From NCBI RefSeq assembly GCF_029910535.1, contig NZ_CP069362.1:1116001-1180000 (forward strand): a stretch of DNA of 64,000 nt. The letters run 5' to 3'. This document shows positions 5,372 through 22,553 of this stretch, one piece after another; the stretch's first letter is position 1; each line of letters opens with the position of its first letter. The DNA is from Marinitoga aeolica. GTDB lineage: Bacteria; Thermotogota; Thermotogae; Petrotogales; Petrotogaceae. The position numbers and the translations under genes are program-made. The notes beneath the pieces are model-generated. The model was not told the origin of the DNA. It made no database searches and saw only the letters and a program-made list of their open reading frames with translations.

Positions 5372-5642
5372 TTTTTATTGTCACACCTTTCTCTTCCAAT
5401 AATTTTTTTATCATATCTCTTTCTTTTTCTATAGCATTAAGTTTCCTTTTTAATGATTCAAATTCACTTTGCGTTTTTTTATATTCATTACTTAGTTCAG
5501 CATATATAAATAGCATACGAACCATTTGTATGCCAAAATATAGTATTACAAAGATTATAGCAAAATAAAGAATCAATTTAAAAATATTAATTTTTTTTTC
5601 TTTTTTCTTTTTTTTGCCAACGATAATTTTTTTTCTTTCCAT
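5298..5642 (-). CDS. DivIC/FtsL-like small membrane protein
   Basis: 114 residues: a lysine-rich cytoplasmic start (KKKKKEKK), one membrane helix at about 24-45, and a coiled coil at about 50-90. This is the architecture of septum-formation initiators such as DivIC and FtsL. There is no strong sequence signature, so the division role is inferred. The start lies three bases after the MalG-like stop, with AAAGGA upstream, which suggests translational coupling. The last 24 codons overlap the methyltransferase start in another frame. Confidence 0.55.
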   Translation of the reverse strand: MERKKIIVGKKKKKEKKINIFKLILYFAIIFVILYFGIQMVRMLFIYAELSNEYKKTQSEFESLKRKLNAIEKERDMIKKLLEEKGVTIKNGKINYNYVPQTIEGTTSASQTTR

Positions 5643-5645
5643 TTT

Positions 5646-6353
5646 TTATCCTTTCAATCCTGAACGTGCAATTCCTGCTACAAAATATTTTTGCATGAAT
5701 ATGAATAACAGAATTATAGGAATTACAGAAAATGTAGAAGCAGCCATTAAAAGATTATATAAAGTTCCTGATTCTGTTGTAAATGTTTGCAAACCAACCG
5801 CTAATGTTCTCATTTCTGGAGATTTGGTTACAATCAAAACCCACAAGAAAGCATTCCAGCTGCCAACAAATTTAAGCAAAGCACCGGTTATTAAAGCAGG
5901 TTTACTTAGTGGAACCATAACAGTCCATAAAAATCTCCAGCTACTGCTACCATCGATTTTAGCAGCATCCCATAAGTCATTAGGTATAGTTAAAAATTGC
6001 TGTCTTAAAAGGAATATTGCAAATACACTAACTATCCATGGAATAATTAATGCATAATATGTATCAAGCCATCTAAATTTACTGATTGTTATGAAGTTTG
6101 GAACAAGCATTACTTCTCCAGGAACCATCATTGTAGCTAAAAATAGTGTGAATAAAATATTTTTGCCCCAGAATTCAAGTTTTGCAAAAGCAAAAGCTGC
6201 CATTGCAGAAATAATGATTTCAAAAATTGTTGTTGATGTTGCCATAAATACTGTGTTTATATAATATTTTGAAAATGGAGCAGCGTTCCATGCATCGACA
6301 TAATTCTGGAAAACATTTGCAAATATTTGAGAAGGTGTAAATTGTGCCTTCAT
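5646..6353 (-). CDS. MalG-type sugar ABC permease, C-terminal part after an in-frame TAG
   Basis: 235 residues forming the conserved part of a carbohydrate ABC permease: five hydrophobic helices and the EAA loop (DAAKIDGSSSWRFLWTVMVPL) that contacts the ATPase. The N-terminal helix of such permeases is missing and is encoded just upstream at 6375-7865 in the same frame. The two pieces are separated by TAG and seven sense codons. The nominal ATG at 6353 has no ribosome binding site. It is therefore either read through, translated inefficiently by itself, or the 3' half of a recently broken gene. Confidence 0.8.
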   Translation of the reverse strand: MKAQFTPSQIFANVFQNYVDAWNAAPFSKYYINTVFMATSTTIFEIIISAMAAFAFAKLEFWGKNILFTLFLATMMVPGEVMLVPNFITISKFRWLDTYYALIIPWIVSVFAIFLLRQQFLTIPNDLWDAAKIDGSSSWRFLWTVMVPLSKPALITGALLKFVGSWNAFLWVLIVTKSPEMRTLAVGLQTFTTESGTLYNLLMAASTFSVIPIILLFIFMQKYFVAGIARSGLKG

Positions 6354-6374
6354 AGTTGGTTGTTCATCGAGAAA

Positions 6375-7865
6375 CTATAATGCATAGATGTCTTTAAAAT
6401 AAATCTCGATATTTGAATAATTTCTATAATATACTTTATCAACAATATCAGGTTTTTCTAACAAATCTACTTTTGATATAGCATCAGAATATACTTTATT
6501 GAAATTTTCAAGCACTCTATTATATACATTTCTTAAAATAGATAAATCTAAAAGTTTCCTTTTATCAAGATTTTTTTCTTTTATAAAATCAATATCAAAG
6601 CTGTTTAGATAAGTATCAATATTTTCCAGATTAACATTTTTAATTTTTGATAAGCTTCTTATAATAATCAACGTTCTTGACAAGTCTTCAGAAGATATTT
6701 TTAATTCCTGTAGAACTTTATCATTAAAATCATGTTCTATGTTTAAAACGAAATTATCTTTAATCTTTAATATATCGAGTTTTTGATTAATGTCTTTTTT
6801 AAACTCCTCTGGAATATCAGATGAATTTAGAGCCTTTAAAAAGTTATTTTTCATGGTTTCTTTTGTTGGGACATTAAATTTTATTAATAATTTATCTGTG
6901 GAATATTTTTGTATATCATTAAATTTCTTTTCAAAAAAAGATTTGAATTTTAAAGAATTTTTGTTGTGTATAATGGCATTATAAATATTTTTCTCAAGTA
7001 ATCTATTAACATTTCTTAAGTACATATCGGTATATGAAATAAATTTAATTGTATTTAACTTTTCTATTATATCATTAATTTCATCATTTGATATTATACC
7101 AGTTCCTTTAGAATAATTTGAGATTAATACTGAAATATTGGTTAAATCAGTTTTTAGATTTTCAAGATAATTTTTAAGTTCTTCTTTTTTTTCTTCTTTT
7201 TCTTTTTTTATAATAGAATTATCTGTATTTTTAATTCTGAGATAAGGTAATCTATTTAAAGAAATTTTTAGAAATTTATCAATATAATTTATGGATTTTT
7301 TTACTTCTTTATTAAGAGATTTAAGTATTTGTGCCTTTTTAAATAAACCATTTGAAGATGAATATAGACTAAAATAGAAATTTTCAAAGCTTTCAGGATT
7401 GTTTTCAAGAGAATTAATTTTATTTGATAGTTCTGGTATTAAGGGAAAATTTGCATTATATGCTTTTATATCATTGATTAAATTAGCTAAATTAGTATTA
7501 TTTGCATAATTTAAAGCAGGAAATTTTAATGTTATTAAACCCCGTCTTACAGCATCATCTTCGACAGTTAAAACTTTTTTATATGGGTTATAAACACTCT
7601 CACTTTGAGAAGCTCTAAATTCTGCTAAACTAAGACTTCCCTGATTTCCCAACGAAGTAGAAGGTGAATTTTTAATATTTACAGATATTTCAGATTTGAA
7701 ATTTTTTGATGTCCATTTTGGTGGCCATTGAGAGATTTCACTTCCTGTTTTAAATGAAGTTACAACCATCCATGCAAAAGGCATAGCCATTACTATAGCC
7801 CCACCAATAACTAATAAATAAACTATTAAAGTTCCCATTGTATTCATAAATTTTGTCCAGGACAT
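6375..7865 (-). CDS. MalG-type permease, N-terminal helix and giant loop, ending at in-frame TAG
   Basis: 496 residues. Residues about 10-34 are the first membrane helix of a MalG-type permease, followed by the WMVVTSFKTGSEIS segment. About 440 lysine- and asparagine-rich, mainly helical residues follow; they sit where ordinary permeases have a short external loop between helices 1 and 2. From memory, Thermotoga MalG proteins also have a long insertion here. The frame ends with TAG at 6375-6377 and continues without a shift into the permease core at 6353. The MalF-like partner lies 12 bases upstream. ATPase and binding-protein genes are not in the window. Confidence 0.75.
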   Translation of the reverse strand: MSWTKFMNTMGTLIVYLLVIGGAIVMAMPFAWMVVTSFKTGSEISQWPPKWTSKNFKSEISVNIKNSPSTSLGNQGSLSLAEFRASQSESVYNPYKKVLTVEDDAVRRGLITLKFPALNYANNTNLANLINDIKAYNANFPLIPELSNKINSLENNPESFENFYFSLYSSSNGLFKKAQILKSLNKEVKKSINYIDKFLKISLNRLPYLRIKNTDNSIIKKEKEEKKEELKNYLENLKTDLTNISVLISNYSKGTGIISNDEINDIIEKLNTIKFISYTDMYLRNVNRLLEKNIYNAIIHNKNSLKFKSFFEKKFNDIQKYSTDKLLIKFNVPTKETMKNNFLKALNSSDIPEEFKKDINQKLDILKIKDNFVLNIEHDFNDKVLQELKISSEDLSRTLIIIRSLSKIKNVNLENIDTYLNSFDIDFIKEKNLDKRKLLDLSILRNVYNRVLENFNKVYSDAISKVDLLEKPDIVDKVYYRNYSNIEIYFKDIYAL

Positions 7866-7877
7866 TATAAGACCCCC

Positions 7878-9242
7878 TTAAGAATCGTAATGGACACGTT
7901 TTTTCCCGGCTACAAACTGGATAAATGTGAATATAAGTATAATACCAAATAATACATATGCAGCCGCACTTGCCTGTCCCATTCTTTGTTCACCATAGAA
8001 TTTTTCAAAAACATAATAAACTACAGTTAAACCGCTATTGTTGTATGGACCCGGGAGTCCTGAATAAAGAACAAATATTTCAGAAAATACTTTAAATGCA
8101 CCAATCATAGAAACTATTAAAATAAAAAATGTTGTTGGAGAAAGCAAAGGCCAGGTAATGTAGGCGAATTTTTGCCATGTTGTTGCCCCGTCAACTTCAG
8201 CCGCTTCATAATAGCTTTTATCTATATTTTGAAGACCTGCTAAAAAGATTATTGAATAGTATCCTACCAATTTCCATATGGATATAATGGCTATTGTTGG
8301 AATTGTCCATTTTTCATCTTTTAGCCATAATATTTTATCCACACCAAAAAAAGAAAGGATATAATTTAATAGACCATTATCATTGAATATCCATTGCCAT
8401 ACTAAGGATACAGCAACAACACTGGTTACAAAAGGAATAAAATATATAGTTCTGAAAAAAACTTTTCCATGTATTTCTTGATAAAACAATAAGGCGATGA
8501 TTAATGATAAAAATATTGTTATAGGCATAGATAACAAAACATAATAGCTGGTATTCCAAATGGCCTTTAGAAAATCCGCTTCTTCTTTTGCCATACTTAA
8601 ATAAGTGACAATTTCAGGTATTTTAATTAATTTTATTCCTAAAATATATATTCCAATAAAAATTAATAACCTTAATAATAATTTATCAGGAGTTCCTTCG
8701 ATTTTTTTCATAGCTGCAATAGCAACATAAGAGAAAGCAAGCCAAAGGAAAATAATCCATTGTAAATTATAATTTATATAATTCCACAAAACAAAGGTTA
8801 TTAAGCCAAATATCGCATTTATAAAAACAAGTTTTTTAACCTTTTTATCGGAAATTCGTTTTGAATCTAAAATAGCATTTAATAAATAAGCTACGAAAAA
8901 TACAATAAAAAAGGTACCTAAAAAAGCAACATTAAAAGTCAAATCTACAGGATGTTTTAGTTTAAACAATTCCGTATAATTTTCAAATCCAATAAATTGA
9001 GGATTTGCCTGATTTTTAAAGTCCCATTTAAAAAAACTTAATACAAATGAATATATAATAGGCCAGAAAACAAAGATCGATAAAACAATCATAGAAGGTA
9101 GAATATATAAATATGCAGTTAAGCTTTCCCTGGTCCTTCTCCAGGCATGTGGAGAAAGAAAAAATTTAGATACCTTCATTAAAATTGCCAAAATTATAGC
9201 AATACTAACTCCTATAATAGGAATGAGAATTTCCGCGGGCAT
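7878..9242 (-). CDS. MalF-type sugar ABC transporter permease with extra membrane segment block
   Basis: 454 residues. A first transporter helix block (LYILPSMIVLSIFVFWPIIYS), the FIGFENYTELF segment, and the EAA loop (EAAEVDGATTWQKFAYITWPLL) identify a carbohydrate permease. Between the first external loop (about residue 100) and the ALWNT-like segment AIWNTSYYV (about 235) lie about 130 residues with four or five additional hydrophobic stretches that standard MalF/UgpA-type permeases of about 300 residues lack. The start at 9242 (MPAEIL) follows GGAGG by nine bases; a TTG seven codons upstream has no ribosome binding site. A good promoter lies at 9280-9309. Confidence 0.85.
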   Translation of the reverse strand: MPAEILIPIIGVSIAIILAILMKVSKFFLSPHAWRRTRESLTAYLYILPSMIVLSIFVFWPIIYSFVLSFFKWDFKNQANPQFIGFENYTELFKLKHPVDLTFNVAFLGTFFIVFFVAYLLNAILDSKRISDKKVKKLVFINAIFGLITFVLWNYINYNLQWIIFLWLAFSYVAIAAMKKIEGTPDKLLLRLLIFIGIYILGIKLIKIPEIVTYLSMAKEEADFLKAIWNTSYYVLLSMPITIFLSLIIALLFYQEIHGKVFFRTIYFIPFVTSVVAVSLVWQWIFNDNGLLNYILSFFGVDKILWLKDEKWTIPTIAIISIWKLVGYYSIIFLAGLQNIDKSYYEAAEVDGATTWQKFAYITWPLLSPTTFFILIVSMIGAFKVFSEIFVLYSGLPGPYNNSGLTVVYYVFEKFYGEQRMGQASAAAYVLFGIILIFTFIQFVAGKKRVHYDS

Positions 9243-9279
9243 AGACTTTCCTCCAATCAACAAAAAATTTTTAACACTA

Positions 9280-21444: not shown

Positions 21445-22553
21445 AAATAAATGTTGAACCATTTGAGAGAATGCGAAAATTTGAATATATAGTTCCACTA
21501 ATATATTTTTCTTTATTGATTTTTGGTATTTTAATGGTTAGAACAGCCACATATGGCGAATATATTGAAGATAATTATTATAAACAAATAATATTTTCTG
21601 TATTAGGAGTAATAATATTCTTCCTCACATATTTTTTGAAAGAGAGAATTTTGAAAAGCATAATTCCTCATTTATATACTATAACTATGTTTTTATTATT
21701 GTATGTTTTACTTTTTGAAAGAGCAAGATATGGTGCAAGAAGATGGATAAGAGTAGGACCTGTTGGAATTCAACCATCGCATTTATTTTTAGTATTTACA
21801 CTTATAATTTTTTCAAAGTATTTAGCAGAGAAAAATAGAAAAGCATATTATATACTCTCTTTTACAACATTAATAGGACTGGGATTGATTTTTAAGCAAC
21901 CAGATTTAGGTATGACCTTATTTACCTTTGGATTATGGTTTTTATTAACATATGTTTCAGGACAACATGAAAAAACATGGAAAACATCGTTATTTTTAAT
22001 GTTATTTTCTTCACCATTCGCTTTTTACTTTATGAAAGATTATCAGAGAGCAAGGATAATAGGTTTTTTATTTCCAGAGAAAAATGCTGCAGGCGTTGCA
22101 TATAATACATTACAGGCAATTAGAGCTATTGGATCAGGCGGTTTATTTGGTAAAGGATATTTGAATGGATTTATGAATCTTTCAAATTTTGTTCCAGAAG
22201 ATCATAATGATTTTATAATAGCGGTTATTGGAGAAGAATTAGGATTTGTTGGAATATTATTTGTTATAGGGTTATATGCTTTACTGATTTATAGAATTTA
22301 TCAATATTCAATGAGAACATCCAGAAAATTCTGGAAGTATGTATATTTTGGAACAATTGCAATAATATTTTTTCATGTATATGAAAATATAGGAATGAAT
22401 TTGGGAATTATGCCAGTAACAGGCGTTCCATTACCATTAATTTCATATGGTGGAAGTCAGATAATAACCTTTTCATTTTTATTGGGATTGGTTACAAAGG
22501 GTATAGCAACAACAGAAACATTTAATGAAGAGAATTATCTGGATAATGAGTAG
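21441..22553 (+). CDS. rodA: Rod shape-determining SEDS glycosyltransferase RodA
   Basis: 370 residues with about ten membrane helices. It polymerises lipid II with PBP2 in the elongasome. RWIRVGPVGIQPSH near residue 98-112, EDHNDFIIAVIGEELGF near 253-270, and PLPLISYGGSQI near 331-343 are SEDS-family motifs. The GTG start overlaps the HD-GYP stop and has AGGAGG. The partner PBP2 and MreBCD genes lie separately on the minus strand at 25750-29542. Confidence 0.92.
   Translation: MKINVEPFERMRKFEYIVPLIYFSLLIFGILMVRTATYGEYIEDNYYKQIIFSVLGVIIFFLTYFLKERILKSIIPHLYTITMFLLLYVLLFERARYGARRWIRVGPVGIQPSHLFLVFTLIIFSKYLAEKNRKAYYILSFTTLIGLGLIFKQPDLGMTLFTFGLWFLLTYVSGQHEKTWKTSLFLMLFSSPFAFYFMKDYQRARIIGFLFPEKNAAGVAYNTLQAIRAIGSGGLFGKGYLNGFMNLSNFVPEDHNDFIIAVIGEELGFVGILFVIGLYALLIYRIYQYSMRTSRKFWKYVYFGTIAIIFFHVYENIGMNLGIMPVTGVPLPLISYGGSQIITFSFLLGLVTKGIATTETFNEENYLDNE

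Follow-up and report, generated by a model that had tools for sequence, protein, structure and literature searches.

A probable recent nonsense allele of a MalG-type ABC sugar permease gene in Marinitoga aeolica

In Thermotoga maritima and other Thermotogales, the maltose permease subunits MalG1 and MalG2 are encoded by complete genes, and a hydrophilic stretch of about 500 residues with unexplained function separates their helix 1 from helix 2 (Noll et al. 2008, PMC2246101). The malE, malF and malG genes of T. maritima form one operon, and for malF2 of this species (TM1837/TM1838) an authentic inactivating frameshift has been reported (PMC2246101). The malG-type gene of Marinitoga aeolica described here resides in a window of 64,000 nucleotides on the 2.44 Mb chromosome, which is assembled as one contig. 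It likewise carries an insert, of about 440 residues, but differs from the complete genes encoding MalG1 and MalG2 by a stop codon at the end of the insert, and malE lies apart from malF and malG in this genome in contrast to the T. maritima operon. With T. maritima malF2 it shares an apparently inactivating mutation in a maltose-type permease gene within the same phylum; there, however, it is the partner subunit that is hit, and by a frameshift, whereas the lesion in Marinitoga is a nonsense substitution. By sequence as well as by fold, the best solved relatives of the permease core are SugB of the LpqY-SugABC system and Escherichia coli MalG, both of which comprise about 275-300 residues and, unlike the Marinitoga protein, lack the insert.

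The interrupted gene occupies window positions 5646-7865 on the minus strand and spans 740 codons. Translation of this interval shows that a TAG at 6375-6377 (minus strand), identified as codon 497 by translation and by comparison with the codons of relatives, is the sole internal stop, and owing to this codon malG is not a single uninterrupted reading frame. The TAG ends a 5' open frame of 496 amino acids (6375-7865, minus strand) that contains helix 1 and nearly the whole of the inserted extracytoplasmic domain. Beyond it the same frame continues with seven codons (FLDEQPT) and then the permease core, the downstream half (5649-6374, minus strand) comprising helices 2-6 together with DAAKIDG..P, the sequence of the EAA loop, up to a TAA at 5646-5648. 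A chance juxtaposition of two frames is ruled out, as uninterrupted genes of the genus and family can be aligned with the 739-residue frame over its full length. The gene begins directly after an intact malF-type partner permease gene (7878-9263, minus strand), an order that is the same in other Marinitoga, and its start is preceded by a strong Shine-Dalgarno sequence, AAGGGGG at 7873-7879 (minus strand), with a pairing energy of -11.4 kcal/mol. No Shine-Dalgarno sequence, in contrast, precedes the first ATG downstream of the TAG (6351-6353, minus strand), where pairing reaches only -1.6 kcal/mol. On the opposite (plus) strand, an antisense open frame at window positions 5614-6057 faces the 3' part of malG; it is open in other Marinitoga, too, with 80-87% identity over about 142 amino acids in five of them, and probably owes this to the conservation of the malG codons.

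In the read-through frame the Pfam domain BPD_transp_1 is found at residues 551-732 (E = 2e-22), its 80.2 bits comparing with a curated cut-off of 26.4 and identifying a permease domain. Hydropathy analysis reveals one helix at residues 6-38 (7752-7850, minus strand), a long hydrophilic stretch and five helices at residues 538-733, and the EAA loop is present at about residues 633-652, where the alignment shows no variation at A634, D638, G639 and P652. According to hydropathy and predicted structure, the inserted domain between helices 1 and 2 extends over residues ~55-512 (6330-7703, minus strand); it is predicted with high confidence (pLDDT 90) to be compact and helical apart from a small sheet, and its last predicted strand, residues 504-508, would be lost by truncation at the TAG. 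For this insert no Pfam family was found, a Foldseek fold search returned nothing below an E value of 0.001, and VIA-align gave Z values of about 9 only, to generic helical bundles, which is within the background. As hydropathy and predicted structure place a large hydrophilic region where MalG1 and MalG2 of the Thermotogales have theirs, the insert is not new but a known feature of Thermotogales MalG, and within that family the gene is unremarkable. The initial annotation, made from the letters of the sequence, had thus correctly described a malG split by one in-frame TAG with no other defect, seven codons and the core following in frame, a loop of about 440 residues after the N-terminal helix, a core that by itself lacks the first helix, and an ATG of this core without a ribosome binding site.

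Of 29 relatives, 28, including all six other Marinitoga, have TGG (Trp) at the codon aligned to the TAG, and the remaining one has TAC (Tyr), so that the TAG is a single transition away from the codon of the family; none of the 29 relatives examined has a stop at this position. A wider alignment across the phylum has at residue 497 Trp in 15 rows (the window's own row, read as Trp, being counted), Tyr in nine, Asn in two and Ser in two. The malG frame itself is unbroken in 19 of 20 genomes compared, i.e., in five of six Marinitoga and in 14 of 14 other family members. The exception is M. lauensis LG1 (L165), the closest named genome found, the malG of which has a one-base frameshift at codon 632 that is unrelated to the TAG. 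Since this assembly shows frameshifts in six of the 14 window genes compared, malF and malG among them, the M. lauensis break is best read as assembly noise and was rejected as a true break.

Comparison with M. lauensis yields a dN/dS of 0.080 for the loop (dS 0.61, dN 0.049) and of 0.017 for the core (dS 0.42, dN 0.007), which points to strong purifying selection on both sides of the TAG. With the other Marinitoga as outgroups, the changes in the core could be polarised to branches, giving 20 synonymous and three non-synonymous changes on the M. aeolica branch and 28 synonymous and one non-synonymous change on that of M. lauensis. Given the number of sites in the core, about 72 non-synonymous changes would be expected if the M. 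aeolica branch had been wholly free of selection, and since only three are seen, the stop would have been present for at most about a tenth of the branch; this upper limit on the unconstrained fraction is our own rough estimate from a Poisson bound. The low dN/dS on both sides, together with the lack of a second lesion, suggests that the stop is very young. The low dN/dS would, however, look identical if full-length MalG were still made, and the stop is accordingly either young, or absent from the chromosome, or without effect.

That the TAG might be absent from the chromosome, with a sense codon at 6375-6377 and an intact malG hidden by a base-calling or assembly error, is favoured by a frame that is otherwise perfect and under strong constraint, and lone G/A substitutions can plausibly arise as errors in some long-read assemblies. 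However, when a sample of about 400 kb of the M. aeolica genome was compared with 400 kb of a complete, two-contig Marinitoga genome (G002), malG alone of the 96 paired genes (31,238 codons) was genuinely broken, and the reciprocal comparison found no break in 75 genes. Two other flagged breaks turned out to be antisense reading frames and are not genuine. As far as frameshifts and stops are concerned, the assembly is clean, in contrast to that of M. lauensis with its six broken genes out of 14, and a generally bad assembly is unlikely given that malG is the sole genuine break. A systematic miscall at a sequence motif found no support either, short words around the TAG showing no clear depletion (one 7-mer had the lowest ratio, 0.64), though the test is a weak one. 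A sequence error is therefore an unlikely explanation, albeit one that has to be taken seriously; of the sequencing or strain error raised by the initial annotation, the suspicion as such stands, but with 95 other genes free of genuine breaks it is less likely than a recent break.

That the stop might be without effect appears far less probable in any of its forms. Stop-codon readthrough, suppression or bypass, yielding full-length MalG, would be in keeping with constraint that continues on both sides of the TAG, but this is the least probable reading of all. A CUA anticodon was found neither among the tRNAs detected with a covariance model and ARAGORN nor by anticodon-arm patterns, which were added because the tRNA list may be incomplete (tRNA-Ile(GAU) being absent from it); one pattern match, at 685853, was rejected as the loop of tRNA-Arg(UCU) read one base off. 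Release factor RF1 is present (474.7 bits), and TAG terminates 34 of the 248 open reading frames with 150 codons or more that a 320-kb sample contains (14%), as well as, in the ordinary way, those ending at 22550 and 36157 in the window. Codon reassignment and a suppressor tRNA were rejected on these grounds, and the earlier argument that general recoding is unlikely, drawn from TAG as the normal stop of these two window frames, rodA and a histidine kinase gene, gains support from them. In addition, the RNA around the TAG folds no better than shuffled sequence (z = -0.59), the following bases, TTTCTC, do not fit the known CARYYA readthrough context, and neither stop nor context is conserved in relatives as programmed readthrough would lead one to expect (TGG in 28 of 29, TAC in one). 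Reinitiation at the ATG seven codons past the TAG might instead supply a five-helix core and partly preserve importer activity, given that this ATG lies 22 bases beyond the TAG in the same frame and that the core contains the whole Pfam permease domain; yet with no Shine-Dalgarno sequence, no stop at this codon in any of the relatives examined, and the helix leading into the core missing, the chance of this is very small. Even smaller is that of a functional importer with a split MalG, in which both the exported domain, tethered to the membrane, and a five-helix core made by reinitiation would work. The lack of a CUA tRNA among those found, the presence of RF1, the common use of TAG, the absence of RNA structure, of a Shine-Dalgarno sequence and of stops in relatives thus together make it unlikely that the TAG is suppressed or bypassed or that two products are made by design. 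Of the initial suggestions, suppression or bypass of the TAG finds no support, nor does that of two products in its by-design version, while the proposal that the gene broke very recently is well supported by the step from TGG to TAG, the absence of further decay and the very low dN/dS; the refuting outcome named there, a loss of conservation of the downstream half in relatives, is not seen, this half being in fact the best-conserved part.

A recent nonsense allele of an ordinary MalG-type permease gene, in which a Trp codon changed from TGG to TAG in this strain or in the sequenced culture, thus appears the best explanation, with a probability of about 0.74. On this recent-allele reading, the importer would be an ABC system of the maltose type, with malG encoding a permease subunit that has the Thermotogota-typical large insert between helices 1 and 2, and one G-to-A transition, either in the strain or in the culture, would have arisen too recently for a second lesion to appear. 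Translation would stop at residue 496, so that helix 1 and nearly all of the exported domain would be made, but neither the five core helices nor the EAA loop, which provide the coupling to the ATPase. Because such a truncated MalG would lack both, the maltose-type importer is most likely non-functional.

This loss might be tolerable in many media, e.g., rich medium, with MalF, MalE and other sugar importers intact. The stand-alone malE (L207:1285-2493, minus strand), which lies outside the malF-malG locus and is not linked to it, is intact and has T. maritima MalE2 as its best match, and the genome encodes about 20 other SBP_bac_8-type binding proteins. Other importers are present, one of them adjoining genes that by eye were named beta-phosphoglucomutase-like and GH65 phosphorylase-like. 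A second permease, of 863 amino acids, in which a loop of about 600 residues joins helix 1 to helix 2, is encoded outside the window at chromosome positions 533338-535926 (L184:3338-5926), where its gene follows a MalF-like gene of 593 amino acids; its core is 32% identical to that of malG, and the two inserts have no significant similarity. A search of a plasmid collection gave no match.

Beyond the one strain the finding carries little biological weight; it most likely represents an ordinary loss of function and not a new reading of the code. For practical purposes, it is advisable to label malG a probable pseudogene or to verify it in the reads, and caution is advised against using this strain of M. 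aeolica for experiments on maltose uptake. Should the mutation prove real, however, the strain would provide a natural test of the large Thermotogota MalG insert when severed from its permease core.
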